From: Bacillota bacterium
Lineage (GTDB): Bacteria > Bacillota > Clostridia > Tissierellales > Peptoniphilaceae
Length of the DNA: 64,000 nucleotides
Assembly: GCA_028724185.1 (NCBI GenBank)
Contig: JAQYDN010000007.1
Span: 25,447 to 89,446, forward strand
Reading direction: 5' to 3'
The position numbers and the translations under genes were made by a program. Position 1 is the stretch's first letter. Each line of letters opens with the position of its first letter. Positions 18,882 through 64,000 of this stretch are shown here, piece after piece. The notes beneath the pieces were generated by a model. That model did no database searches. It saw nothing but the letters and a program-made list of their open reading frames with translations, and had not been told where the DNA came from.

Positions 18882-19005
18882 AAAAAAGACCTGCACGCAG
18901 CAGGCCTTATTCTTATCTTCCAGACCTGACTGTCTGTAGGATTTAGCACCTGTTAAGGTTGCCGGGTTTCACAGTGCCTATTCACTCCACCGCTCTTAAT
19001 AAGAA
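18882..19005 (-). promoter_or_regulatory. SAM-I (S-box) riboswitch with terminator upstream of metK
   Basis: Minus strand: TTCTTATTAAGAGCGGTGGAG...GTGAAACCCGGCAACC...GGTGCTAAATCC...GAAGATAAGAA, then GGCCTGCTGCGTGCAGGTCTTTTTTT. Confidence 0.95.
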
Positions 19006-39948: not shown

Positions 39949-39972
39949 GGCGATTGATTTGATAAACATCGC

Positions 39973-40051
39973 CTGCATTCCTACGAGAGTGTTAGCTCAC
40001 AGGTTCAAAGGGTCAGGTTTTACCTTCTCAACGTCAAAGTCCCCCTTGCAG
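39973..40051 (-). promoter_or_regulatory. TPP riboswitch (THI element) upstream of thiM
   Basis: Minus strand: CTGCAAGGGGGACTTTGACGTTGAGAAGGTAAAACCTGACCCTTTGAACCTGTGAGCTAACACTCTCGTAGGAATGCAG. Confidence 0.93.
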
Positions 40052-40101
40052 TATTCGATTAAGAAAACCTTAACACCCATGCGAATGTTTGTCAAATGCG
40101 A

Positions 40102-58817: not shown

Positions 58818-59065
58818 AAAAAAACCATTTGCTCGATTTAGGAGCAAATGGTAAATTCACGGTGCCATCCTAGTTACGTCCAAGAGGACGCTTCTCAATT
58901 AGATACTAACATATCCTATCTCTGTAACGGGAGATCCGTCTCGGTTACTCGATTCACCTCGCACTCACAGACCCATTCATCTTAGCTCGCTTCATCGGTT
59001 CACACCAACCACCGACTCTCTGGGAAGGATCACTAAAACTACTTACTTCTGTTCGACGTTTTCAA
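58818..59065 (-). promoter_or_regulatory. T-box leader (probable Trp specifier) with terminator
   Basis: Minus strand: CAGAGAGTCGGTGGTTGGTGTGAACCGA stem I, specifier region GAATGGGTC, T-box AGGATGGCACCGTG, terminator ACCATTTGCTCCTAAATCGAGCAAATGGTTTTTTT. Confidence 0.92.
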
Positions 59066-59125: not shown

Positions 59126-59368
59126 CTAAAGTTCTTCGACCGAAAAGACGATCTGTCCGTCTTCTCTTATAAAGGCGGGGACGCCGACTTGTTTGTTGTC
59201 CTTGACGACGTCGAATTCCGCCCTGCTGTCTCTGAGCGCCATAAATTCCTTCAGCTTTCCGATCGAGCTCGTAATATCGATGTCCTCGTACTCGATCCCC
59301 TCCTCGCGCAGTCGCTTCTTCGCGGCGACGCAATCCGGGCACAGTTCCGTTTCATACATTCGAATCAT
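59126..59368 (-). CDS. Glutaredoxin-related protein
   Basis: 80 aa, thioredoxin-fold YETELCPDCVAAKKRLREEGIEYEDIDI; GVPAFI. Confidence 0.88.
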   Translation of the reverse strand: MIRMYETELCPDCVAAKKRLREEGIEYEDIDITSSIGKLKEFMALRDSRAEFDVVKDNKQVGVPAFIREDGQIVFSVEEL

Positions 59369-59384: not shown

Positions 59385-59412
59385 AAAAAGAGCCGGCGCA
59401 GGCCGGCTCCTG
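59385..59412 (-). terminator. Terminator after the ATP-grasp gene
   Basis: aggagccggcctgcgccggctcttttt on the minus strand. Confidence 0.85.
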
Positions 59413-59417
59413 AGCTT

Positions 59418-61085
59418 CTATTTATTCCTGTTTTCCAATAGGCGTATTCTCTCTTCGAGCGCGTGAACGCGTCTTTCAAGAGCCGCGTAACGCGGATCGT
59501 CGACCGGTCGATTCTCGTAGCGATCGGGCTCGGGATATCCTGCATTATACGGATGTTGCTCGTTCCAATCCCCAGCGTACACGTCGGCCTCCTCTTCCAT
59601 GTCGTCTCTCAAATCTTCCGCTTTGTCATACCACTCGGCCGCTTTTTGCTTCGCGCCTTCCTTGTAGGCCCTTCCGCGGCGTCTGGCTTCTTCCTCGAAG
59701 TCGTCGATCGCCTCGTCCGCTTTATGACCCCATTCGTAGGCCTTTTGTCGCATATCGGCCCTGTAGGCATTTCCGCGGCGCTTCGCCTCTTCGCCGAAGT
59801 CTTCGAGCGTCTCATCCGCCCGGTCGCGCCACTCGGAGGCCTTTTCTCTGTACAGGTCGCCGCGACGTCTCGCTTCCTCTTCGAAGTCGTCGATCGCCTC
59901 GTCCGCTTTATGGCCCCATTCGTAGGCCTTTTGTCGCGCGTCTTCTTTATAAGCTCTGCCGCGACGTTTGGTCTCTTCTTGGAAGTCTTCGATTTTTTCC
60001 TTCGTCTGTTCGGCGAGGCGCTCTTTCAGCGTCGTAAGCGCGCGACGATGCGCGGCTTTATTTTCCTCGCGGCGTCGCTCTCTGATGTCCTCGACGTCGC
60101 CTTTTTTGCCGTCGTCGGTCAGATTTTCGCGCGCCATCGCAACTTCTACAATCTTTCGAATAAACTCGTCATAACTCAATCCCGCCGCTTCGGCACCTTT
60201 TATGATGTCCGAGGTCTTCGGATCGAGTCCCGCGAGCGCGTTTACTTCGAGGACATAGGCCGTGCCGTCTTTTACGCGCATATCGATGCGCGCGTAATCT
60301 CTCAATTGCAGGAGATCGTATACGCGACGCGCCGTATCTTCCACCGCCTTTTTCTCGGCCTCGGTGAGGCGCGCCGGAACGTGGTAGTCGACGAGATCTT
60401 TGTGCTTCACGTCGAATGTAAAAATCTTGGGGTGATGGCCTACATTCGAAAAGTCGACTTCGACGGGGGGCAGGATCTCCTTGTCCTCGCCGTTTCCGAT
60501 GACGCCGACGGTTATTTCCTTTCCGTCGATGTACTCGCTCAATACGATTTCGTCGGTGTAGGCGAAGAGATCTCTCGATGCCTTAAACAAGTCTTCGGCG
60601 TCGCGCACGAAACACACATCCGTGATGCCTCTGCTCGAGCCGTCGCAGTTGGGCTTGACGACGACGGGATAGGTCACGTCGATCTTCGCCAAGGACACCG
60701 GAGAGTCGGCGACGTCGGTCTTCGGATGAGCGATGTCGTTTCGCTCCAAGACCGCCGCCGTCAACGCCTTGTCGTCGCTTATGCCGTGTCCGATCGCGTT
60801 GGAACCCGTATAGGGAATGCCCGCCGCATTCAACAGCGTCGGCAACTCCGTGCGATCCTCGATGTCGTCCTTGCCGTTGGCGAGATTGAAGACCAAGTCG
60901 ATCCCGTCTTCTTCCAGCTTCTTCACGATGTCGTCGTCGAAGACGTATTCGATAACGTCGTATTGCTCATCGAGCGCTTTCTCGATATGTTTTACGACTC
61001 CGTTTTGGTAGTCGGCCTCCGCCTTGGCGGCAGCCGGCGTCTTTCTGTCGATCTGTGAAATATCTCTGATAATACCGATTCGCAT
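59418..61085 (-). CDS. D-Ala-D-Ala-ligase-like ATP-grasp protein with C-terminal charged helical repeat tail
   Basis: Ddl-like FNLANGKDDIEDRTELPTLLNAAGIPYTGSNAIGHGISDDKALT; KPNCDGSSRGI; VLEVNALAGLDP; tail repeats IDDFEEEARRRGRAYKE..RQKAYEWGHKADEA. Confidence 0.88.
   Translation of the reverse strand: MRIGIIRDISQIDRKTPAAAKAEADYQNGVVKHIEKALDEQYDVIEYVFDDDIVKKLEEDGIDLVFNLANGKDDIEDRTELPTLLNAAGIPYTGSNAIGHGISDDKALTAAVLERNDIAHPKTDVADSPVSLAKIDVTYPVVVKPNCDGSSRGITDVCFVRDAEDLFKASRDLFAYTDEIVLSEYIDGKEITVGVIGNGEDKEILPPVEVDFSNVGHHPKIFTFDVKHKDLVDYHVPARLTEAEKKAVEDTARRVYDLLQLRDYARIDMRVKDGTAYVLEVNALAGLDPKTSDIIKGAEAAGLSYDEFIRKIVEVAMARENLTDDGKKGDVEDIRERRREENKAAHRRALTTLKERLAEQTKEKIEDFQEETKRRGRAYKEDARQKAYEWGHKADEAIDDFEEEARRRGDLYREKASEWRDRADETLEDFGEEAKRRGNAYRADMRQKAYEWGHKADEAIDDFEEEARRRGRAYKEGAKQKAAEWYDKAEDLRDDMEEEADVYAGDWNEQHPYNAGYPEPDRYENRPVDDPRYAALERRVHALEERIRLLENRNK
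59590..60010 (-). repeat. Intragenic repeat encoding ~33-aa helical units
   Basis: Near-identical DNA at ~59700-59755 and ~59886-59940 (gtcgtcgatcgcctcgtccgctttatg[a/g]ccccattcgtaggccttttgtcgc); peptide repeats visible in translation. Confidence 0.85.
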
Positions 61086-61156
61086 AATTCACGCTCCCTT
61101 TTGTCCATGATCTCTTGGATATTGTCTACCCGAATAAGGGAGGCGTGAATCACCGA

Positions 61157-64000
61157 TCACTCGCTATAATCTCCGATTTCGTAGATTTCCACGTCGTCTG
61201 CGACCGGATTATTTTTCAACATGTCGACGTAAACTTTCGCCTTGTCCAGGTTCGTAAACAGCTCGACGTCGCATTCGATCGCGTTTCTTCGAATTAAGAA
61301 TCCGTCGCGCTTCGAGTCGTTTCCCTTGGTCGGCGTATTGAAGACGATGTCGATCTTGCCCTCTTGAATTAAGTCGATCATCGTCGGGGCGCTCTCGCCG
61401 ATGCGGCGAACTTCCTCGGCCTCGATGCCGTTTTCTTCGAGGAAGGCGCGCGTCCCCTTCGTCGCGTAGAAGTGAACGCCCAGCTCCTTGAGTTCCTCGG
61501 CGATCGGCAAAAATTCCTCTTTGTCGCGGTCGCGCAGCGTGCACAGGACGTTTCTCTCTCTGTTTGAGATATCCATGCCGGCCGCTAAAAAGCCCTTCGC
61601 CATGGCCTCTTCTTCGGTTCTGCCGACGCCCAGCACCTCGCCTGTTGAGCGCATTTCGGGCCCGAGAGAGGCCTCGACGCGGTGCAGCTTTTCGGTGGAA
61701 AATACGGGGATTTTTACACAAGTCAGATTCGAGCGATCCCCGATGCCGGTGGAAAAGCCCAGGGATTTAAGGGAATAGCCCAACATCACTTTCGTCGCAA
61801 GTTCGGTGATATTGGTACCCGTCACCTTCGAGAGATAGGGGACGGTCCTCGAACTTCTCGGATTGACCTCGATCATATAGAGCGTCTCGTCCTTGATGAT
61901 AAATTGAATATTGATCATGCCGATGACGTCGAGCTCCAAGGCAACTTTTCGCGTCGCATCCAGGATTTCCGCTTCCATCTTCTCCGAGATGTTGCGGCTC
62001 GGGTAGATGCTGATCGAGTCGCCGCTGTGAATGCCCGCGCGCTCCAAGTGTTCCATAATGCCCGGAAGATAGACGTCGGTTCCGTCGCAGATCGCGTCGA
62101 CTTCACATTCCATCCCCTCGATGTACTGGTCGATCAGGACCGTACGATTCGGCTCCATCTCGAAGGATTCCTCGAGGTAATAGCGGAGGTCGTCGTCGTT
62201 CATGCAGATCTCCATGCCCTGGCCGCCGAGGACATAGGAGGGTCGGACGAGGACGGGATAGCCGATGGACTTCGCGCCCTCCATCCCCTCTTCGACACCG
62301 TGAACACCGAGTCCCTTCGGGCGTCTGAGGTCCAAGGCCTCGAGCATCGCGTCGAATTTTTCCCTGTCTTCGGCGCGGTCGATCGCCGTGGGGTCGGTCC
62401 CGAGGATCGGAACGCCCTTTTCCTTAAAGACGCCGGCGAGTTTGATCGCGGTCTGACCGCCGAATTGCAGGATGACGCCGTCCGGATCCTCCTTTTCGAT
62501 AATGTTTAGGGTATCTTCCGCCGTCAACGGTTCGAAGTATAGTTTATCGGAAATGTCGAAGTCGGTGGAGACGGTCTCGGGGTTGTTGTTGATGATGATG
62601 GTCTCGTAGCCTTCCCGGCGAAGCGTCTTGACGCAGTGGACCGAGGCGTAGTCGAATTCGACGCCCTGTCCGATTCGGATGGGCCCGCTGCCGATGACGA
62701 CGATGCGCTTCGCATCCTCTGTGACCGGCGACTCGTCCTCGCCTTCGTAGATCGAGTACAGGTAGTTTACCTCGGCATCGGCGAGACCGCCTTGGGTGTC
62801 GACCTTGCGGTAGGTCGCATCGATCCCGAAGAGCTTTCTGAGCTCTCTTACGAAGTTTTCGCTCACGTCCAGGCGCGATGCGATGATTTCGTCGCTGAAT
62901 CCCAGGCGCTTCATCTCGCGCAACTTGTCCTCGCTCAGGTCTTCCTTCTTCATGCGCTCGAGCTCGGACTCGACGTCGACGATGTGTTTGATGATGCGCA
63001 AAAAGTACGCGTCCATACCCGTTTCGCGCGAGAGGCGTTGGATGTCGTAGCCCGTATTTAAGAGCGCCGCGAGGTAGAAGAGTCGCTCGTCGTTCGGGCG
63101 CTTGACGTTTTCTTTAAGCGTCGCGATATCCATCTCCTTAAAGCGCGGGTGGAGCAGGCTGAATGCGCCTATTTCGAGCGAGCGCAGCCCCTTCAGGAGC
63201 GTCGCCTCGAAGGTCGACCCGATCGCCATCACTTCGCCCGTCGCCATCATCTTCGTCCCGAGGTTGCGGTCGGCGTTGAAAAATTTATCGAACGGCCACT
63301 TCGGCAGCTTGACGACGACGTAGTCGATCGAGGGTTCGAAAGCCATCGATCGCGTTCCCGTGATCTTGTTTTCGATCTCATCCAGCCCGATTCCGAGCGC
63401 GATCTTCGCCGAGACGCGCGCAATCGGGTAGCCCGTCGCCTTCGAAGCGAGCGCCGACGACCGGCTGACGCGCGGGTTGATCTCGATGACGGCGTATTGC
63501 AAACTGTTCGGTTCGACGGCGAATTGCACGTTGCACCCGCCCTCGATGCCGACTTCTTCGATGATCTTAAACGCCGATTTGCGCAACATGTCGTGCTCGA
63601 TGTCGGTGAGCGTCTGCGTCGGTGCGACGACGATGCTGTCGCCGGTGTGGACGCCGACGGGGTCGATGTTTTCCATATTGCAGACGCAGATCGACGTCCC
63701 GTTGGCGTCGCGGATGACTTCGTATTCGATCTCTTTCCAGCCCGTGATGCATCGTTCGATCAGGACCTGTCCGACGCGGGATAGGTGGATGCCGGCGTGT
63801 GCGATCGTCCGAAGTTCCTCCTCGTCTTCGCAGATACCGCCGCCGGTTCCGCCCAAGGTAAAGGCCGGGCGCACGACGACGGGGTAGCCGATCGTATTCG
63901 CGTAGTCGACGGCGTCGTCGACGGATTCGACGGTCTTCGATTCGATGATGGGCTCGCCGATTTTCTCCATCAGCTGGCGAAATTCCTCGCGGTCTTCCCC
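61157..64000 (-). CDS. carB: Carbamoyl-phosphate synthase large subunit (partial, N-terminus beyond window)
   Basis: FTLGGTGGGICEDEEEL; IEINPRVSRSSALASKATGYPIA; GSGPIRIGQGVEFDYASVHCVKTLR; frame open to 64000. Confidence 0.97.
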   Translation of the reverse strand, partial: GEDREEFRQLMEKIGEPIIESKTVESVDDAVDYANTIGYPVVVRPAFTLGGTGGGICEDEEELRTIAHAGIHLSRVGQVLIERCITGWKEIEYEVIRDANGTSICVCNMENIDPVGVHTGDSIVVAPTQTLTDIEHDMLRKSAFKIIEEVGIEGGCNVQFAVEPNSLQYAVIEINPRVSRSSALASKATGYPIARVSAKIALGIGLDEIENKITGTRSMAFEPSIDYVVVKLPKWPFDKFFNADRNLGTKMMATGEVMAIGSTFEATLLKGLRSLEIGAFSLLHPRFKEMDIATLKENVKRPNDERLFYLAALLNTGYDIQRLSRETGMDAYFLRIIKHIVDVESELERMKKEDLSEDKLREMKRLGFSDEIIASRLDVSENFVRELRKLFGIDATYRKVDTQGGLADAEVNYLYSIYEGEDESPVTEDAKRIVVIGSGPIRIGQGVEFDYASVHCVKTLRREGYETIIINNNPETVSTDFDISDKLYFEPLTAEDTLNIIEKEDPDGVILQFGGQTAIKLAGVFKEKGVPILGTDPTAIDRAEDREKFDAMLEALDLRRPKGLGVHGVEEGMEGAKSIGYPVLVRPSYVLGGQGMEICMNDDDLRYYLEESFEMEPNRTVLIDQYIEGMECEVDAICDGTDVYLPGIMEHLERAGIHSGDSISIYPSRNISEKMEAEILDATRKVALELDVIGMINIQFIIKDETLYMIEVNPRSSRTVPYLSKVTGTNITELATKVMLGYSLKSLGFSTGIGDRSNLTCVKIPVFSTEKLHRVEASLGPEMRSTGEVLGVGRTEEEAMAKGFLAAGMDISNRERNVLCTLRDRDKEEFLPIAEELKELGVHFYATKGTRAFLEENGIEAEEVRRIGESAPTMIDLIQEGKIDIVFNTPTKGNDSKRDGFLIRRNAIECDVELFTNLDKAKVYVDMLKNNPVADDVEIYEIGDYSE

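Follow-up and report, generated by a model that had tools for sequence, protein, structure and literature searches.

A Ddl-fold ATP-grasp protein of Aedoeadaptatus with a helical rod and a conserved terminal coiled coil, a probable pseudoenzyme scaffold in five species

Ddl-family cell-wall ligases are drug targets and are kin of the ligases that confer vancomycin resistance. The closest described counterpart of the protein reported here is Ddl itself (PF07478; Bacillus anthracis Ddl, PDB 3r5x and 3r23), with which it shares the fold, the domain order, both ATP-binding lysines, the GSS loop and the set of Arg, Asp, Glu and Asn residues. In contrast with Ddl, the protein has altered pocket positions and 235 additional C-terminal residues that make up the rod and coiled coil, it is separate from the housekeeping copy, and the catalytic site is missing from five of the orthologs. 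ATP-grasp relatives without the catalytic apparatus or activity have been described, including the truncated ATP-grasp protein in a graspetide branch (PMC8939145) and human TTLL12 (PMC3520985), but they belong to ATP-grasp families other than Ddl. In the open-access literature we found neither a pseudoenzyme of the Ddl type or fold nor a Ddl with a coiled-coil tail, in keeping with the preliminary description of this locus, which knew of no Ddl with such an architecture.

The R-h-x-x-h-E motif specifies parallel three-stranded coiled coils, with some known exceptions (PMC3653964). Trimers that carry it (coronin-1, engineered cortexillin/GCN4 and the CoilSer designs) resemble the C-terminal helix of our protein in having hydrophobic residues at positions a and d, Arg at g and Glu at e; here the motif occurs as a tandem pair. 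We draw no common ancestry from this resemblance, and the trimer proposed below is read from sequence.

The gene lies in the window, meaning the whole stretch of 64,000 nucleotides that was analyzed. It is a 555-aa open reading frame, located exactly where the preliminary description had placed it. The features of the gene and its surroundings are as follows.

59418..61085, minus strand: the whole gene, comprising a Ddl-like ATP-grasp domain, a helical rod and a terminal coiled coil (ORF list, orthologs).
60126..61085, minus strand: Ddl-fold ATP-grasp domain, aa 1-320, with all tested catalytic residues present (Pfam, AlphaFold2, Foldseek, alignment).
60144..60683, minus strand: match to Pfam PF07478, aa 135-314 (E 8e-33).
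59556..60092, minus strand: predicted long helical rod, about aa 332-510, with 11-residue periodicity (AlphaFold2, Fourier analysis).
59663..59937, minus strand: three tandem 99-bp (33-aa) repeats within the rod (Tandem Repeats Finder).
59496..59555, minus strand: linker, about aa 511-530, of low predicted confidence (AlphaFold2).
59424..59495, minus strand: terminal coiled-coil helix, aa 531-554, with RVHALE at residue 539 and RIRLLE at 546, both R-h-x-x-h-E (conservation, AlphaFold2, motif search).
61157..64000, minus strand: carB, carbamoyl-phosphate synthase large chain, running past the window edge; conserved upstream neighbor (ORF list, synteny).
59126..59368, minus strand: glutaredoxin-like gene (CPDC), the downstream neighbor in most of the genus (ORF list, synteny).
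59385..59409, minus strand: terminator-like hairpin GAGCCGGCCTGCGCCGGCTC, then TTTTT, just 3' of the gene (sequence, fold).
61086..61152, minus strand: leader hairpin in which the ligase gene's ribosome-binding region would be paired (fold, z -2.9).

The first 320 residues had been taken for a Ddl-family ATP-grasp ligase domain, and both domain and structure searches agree. The Pfam match is to the C-terminal domain of Ddl, and Foldseek matches the predicted domain to Ddl structures, the best being 3r5x (E 4e-23, TMt 0.80). The tail, which begins at about residue 330, has no Pfam match above cut-off. The AlphaFold2 prediction, made from shallow alignments (7 sequences, intact homologs among them), consists of the Ddl-like domain, a single helix spanning about residues 332 to 510, the low-confidence linker and a helix at 531 to 554.

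The ligase-rod gene is found in seven of the eight genomes of the genus Aedoeadaptatus, sampled at one genome per species. Members of this genus are human-associated anaerobic bacteria. Besides the window species, the carriers are A. ivorii, A. nemausensis (record titled Peptoniphilus nemausensis), A. coxii, A. pacaensis, A. urinae and A. coli; these six were identified by an alignment scan of the named genomes, whereas a single-sequence scan of genome contigs produced no match. All six named orthologs lie after carB, and they share the gene order carB, ligase, (glutaredoxin-like gene), ECF S, A, A and T, truA within the extents of the retrieved regions. The sister-genus copy (G013) is also situated between carB and ECF genes. 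Because the ligase domain, rod and terminal coiled coil occur together at the equivalent locus in six named sister species, a misassembly or a fused neighboring reading frame is ruled out. In the eighth genome (G005), carB leads straight into a T-run hairpin and then the glutaredoxin-like gene, and the ligase gene is cleanly absent; since this species has lost it, the gene is dispensable.

Several other observations concern the locus and its surroundings. The glutaredoxin-like gene was not found between the ligase and ECF genes in A. ivorii or G013 (L051, L052), and G005 encodes an additional membrane protein, similar to an ECF S component, between the glutaredoxin-like gene and ecfS (L049, 6983-7492, minus strand). 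A TCGGGTARA-like box and AAAGGAGYGTGA of the leader (61086-61152) are retained in orthologs, and the full leader hairpin is less clear in A. pacaensis, A. urinae and A. coli. A T-box leader at 58837-59065 (minus strand), between the glutaredoxin-like gene and the gene for the ECF S component, suggests amino-acid-linked control of the ECF transporter. Elsewhere in the window, SAM and TPP riboswitches at 18910-19005 and 39961-40056 (both minus strand) score above the Rfam gathering thresholds. A 531-aa antisense reading frame at 59463-61058 (plus strand) overlies the ligase gene and probably arises mechanically from codon usage. G023, from a different genus of the family, has a ligase relative in two pieces with stops (L058, 7507-8174), which is probably a broken copy.

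The window protein has K106, K144, G149-S151 (the GSS loop), R266, D268, E280 and N282, and the lysines, Arg, Asp, Glu and Asn are likewise retained in A. ivorii, in G013 and in tail-less relatives. In A. nemausensis, A. coxii, A. pacaensis, A. urinae and A. coli, K106, K144, the GSS loop, R266, E280 and N282 are all lost, D268 is kept in A. pacaensis only, and the metal-ligand motif is gone along with much of the omega-loop region. The dead domain of A. urinae is predicted to adopt the Ddl fold (pLDDT about 90, from an AlphaFold2 alignment that contained intact homologs). All five dead copies are full-length open frames with neither stops nor frameshifts. Over the dead domain, dN/dS is 0.15 to 0.31 by the NG86 method, which is approximate wherever dS exceeds 1: the value is 0.15 for A. 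nemausensis and A. coxii, 0.184 for A. pacaensis and A. urinae (bootstrap CI 0.117-0.276), and about 0.3 in comparisons with A. coli. Neutral simulation of the A. pacaensis sequence introduces 15 stops on average, and the frame is kept in 0 of 500 runs.

Because the frames are open, dN/dS is below 1 and neutral evolution fails to preserve the frame, the dead copies look like functional proteins and not pseudogenes. Judged from sequences and predicted models, the five sister orthologs would be pseudoenzymes in which the fold is kept, the catalytic residues are lost and purifying selection persists. Since the catalytic site has been destroyed in five species, yet selection has kept the protein, we favor the reading that an oligomerizing Ddl-fold ligase turned into a pseudoenzyme scaffold at least once and that the conserved function is non-catalytic (probability roughly 0.6). 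The lasting job of the protein looks structural rather than catalytic.

The terminal coiled coil has a mean pairwise identity of 81% across the seven orthologs, versus 39% for the ligase domain and 20% for the rod, and the final ~22 residues are the best-conserved stretch of that length in the protein. Two tandem R-h-x-x-h-E motifs, in heptad register, are present in all seven orthologs; when the window coiled coil is shuffled, two such motifs arise in 10 of 20000 cases. Between close dead copies, dN/dS of the coiled coil is 0.026-0.05 (NG86). The coiled coil is confined to this gene among 130 genomes of the family, and the PDB sequences closest to it are mostly designed trimeric coiled coils, a similarity of design and not of ancestry. 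The motifs indicate that the terminal helix is probably a parallel three-stranded coiled coil. A role in a defense system was also considered and rejected, the sole lead being a weak coiled-coil match to ZorA.

In species with an intact site, the protein might instead be a second D-Ala-D-Ala, D-Ala-D-Ser or D-Ala-D-Lac ligase of cell-wall synthesis, as its Ddl fold and full set of tested ATP-grasp catalytic residues would allow. We regard this as rather unlikely. A separate contig of the window genome encodes a canonical Ddl of 396 aa, a second ddl of the kind that the preliminary description had thought worth seeking, and canonical ddl is found in eight of eight genomes of the genus. The window protein falls far below every NCBIfam cut-off for Ddl and Van ligases (best 153.8 versus 243 bits) and lacks the N-terminal S-x-E-x-x-V-S motif of its own genome's Ddl. 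Its neighbors are carB, the glutaredoxin-like gene and the ECF transporter, with no cell-wall genes. The position of E. coli DdlB Tyr216, which together with Ser150 marks ligases specific for D-Ala-D-Ala (PMC7691350), is His, and the Leu beside the conserved pocket Ser (DdlB Leu282) is Asp; both calls are approximate, as they depend on an omega-loop alignment in which the window genome's canonical Ddl is itself misaligned. Because the cut-offs are missed and the pocket is changed from Tyr to His and from Leu to Asp, the intact form in the window species and A. ivorii probably uses a substrate other than D-Ala plus D-Ala.

Tail-less Ddl-like ligases of the order (G025, G038, G027 and G026) and the G013 protein are about 30-51% identical to the ligase domain, and most have the pocket 'N-x-L-x-G-L...S-D' of the window protein. 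They differ in having neither the rod nor the R-h-x-x-h-E coiled coil, and G013 has a dissimilar 105-aa tail. Gene neighbors gave no clue to the substrate of the tail-less relatives, with no consistent neighbor in G025 or G038. Among plasmid sequences, coverage of the query stays below 80% in every record, and in the matches listed the similarity ends at the ligase domain.

The rod has a Fourier peak at 99 degrees in the window tail, or about 3.64 residues per turn, where an 11-residue periodicity corresponds to 11/3 = 3.67. None of 2000 shuffles reaches the peak, and for any ortholog no more than 6 of 2000 do so. Tandem Repeats Finder counts the 99-bp unit 3.0 times, with 67% matches, and residue identity within the window rod is highest at a lag of 33, followed by 29. 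Along with the predicted helices, these data bear out the earlier view of a helical tail of 11- and 33-residue repeats followed by a coiled coil. The RRG-AY and EWGHKADEA motifs, which had been called invariant, are indeed common to the repeats inside the window protein, but not to the orthologs, whose repeat units are different (about 18 aa in A. nemausensis). Across the seven orthologs the length of the rod (125-212 aa in the others) and its repeat unit vary, whereas its periodicity and hydrophilic character are constant. A search for tail-like sequence in other proteins of the window genome found none. A single alpha-helix of alternating charge was rejected, as A. nemausensis and A. coxii alone have an i,i+3/4 salt-bridge score clearly above that of shuffles.

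The preliminary description proposed that this amphipathic 11-mer tail anchors a working ligase to membrane, cell wall or polymer, or to itself. The periodicity would suit an anchor, as would a weak similarity to the Pfam Apolipoprotein family (E 7e-6), but that match attains 26.3 of the 90 bits needed, and a match to a YtxH-like family attains 10.4 of 37.5. The likeness to Apolipoprotein A1/A4/E and YtxH-like proteins is one of charged helical repeats that fall below both curated cut-offs. In all seven orthologs the rod is highly charged (39-51%), net negative and poor in large hydrophobic residues (7-17% aliphatic), and the segment with the best hydrophobic moment has a mean hydrophobicity of about 0 or below. 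Taken as a raw fraction, just 17-35% of 18-residue windows have a membrane-binding score D above 0.68. At best, there is weak support for membrane binding by the rod. The low conservation of the rod and the absence of a catalytic site from five orthologs also make an anchored, working ligase an unlikely explanation. What survives of the proposal is tethering of the protein to itself, as oligomerization is the best-supported option.

Simple decay, in which the ligase became useless in the genus, its site eroded, one species lost the gene and the dead copies do nothing, fits the clean loss between carB and the glutaredoxin-like gene in G005, the broken relative in G023 and the ligase-tree branches, which, measured against the species tree, are longer for dead copies than for intact ones, but it is highly doubtful given the intact frames of five species, a dN/dS clearly under 1 for dead domain and tail alike, the failure of every neutral simulation to keep the frame and an almost unchanged terminal coiled coil.

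The number of losses of catalysis depends on which tree the gene followed. In a species tree built from about 5.3 k aligned columns of RpoB and proteins near it, CarB and the two ECF ATPases, the window species groups with A. coxii and A. nemausensis (bootstrap 98), which implies two independent losses if the gene followed that tree. The ligase tree instead groups the two dead clades together, and when tested on the ligase alignment the species tree is rejected (AU p 0.027). This conflict could be due to shared rapid evolution, to gene conversion in the window species, or to a true single loss.

Under the pseudoenzyme-scaffold reading, the gene product would be an oligomer, each chain carrying an N-terminal Ddl-fold ATP-grasp head at the end of a long rod of 11-residue periodicity. 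The chains would be joined at the far C-terminus by the short coiled coil, which probably makes them trimers. The heads of the window species and A. ivorii probably still use ATP to make an amide or peptide bond, with something other than D-Ala plus D-Ala as the substrate. In the five dead species, the head might serve as a scaffold, a stalk or a pseudoenzyme that binds a ligand or partner, and the essential element would be the C-terminal oligomerization helix.

The dead catalytic domain under purifying selection, which the preliminary description missed, moves attention from ligase chemistry to the tail. A bolder and more tentative proposal is that the genus repurposed a Ddl-fold ligase as a stalked, trimerizing pseudoenzyme scaffold; if the gene tracked the species tree, catalysis died twice while the same coiled coil was kept, and the oligomer may have been the main function even before the loss. 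Among close species, a single gene at a single locus is intact, dead or absent, and this constitutes a natural series. The series allows one to ask what an ATP-grasp fold does without its chemistry, and whether an added oligomerization tail permits that change.
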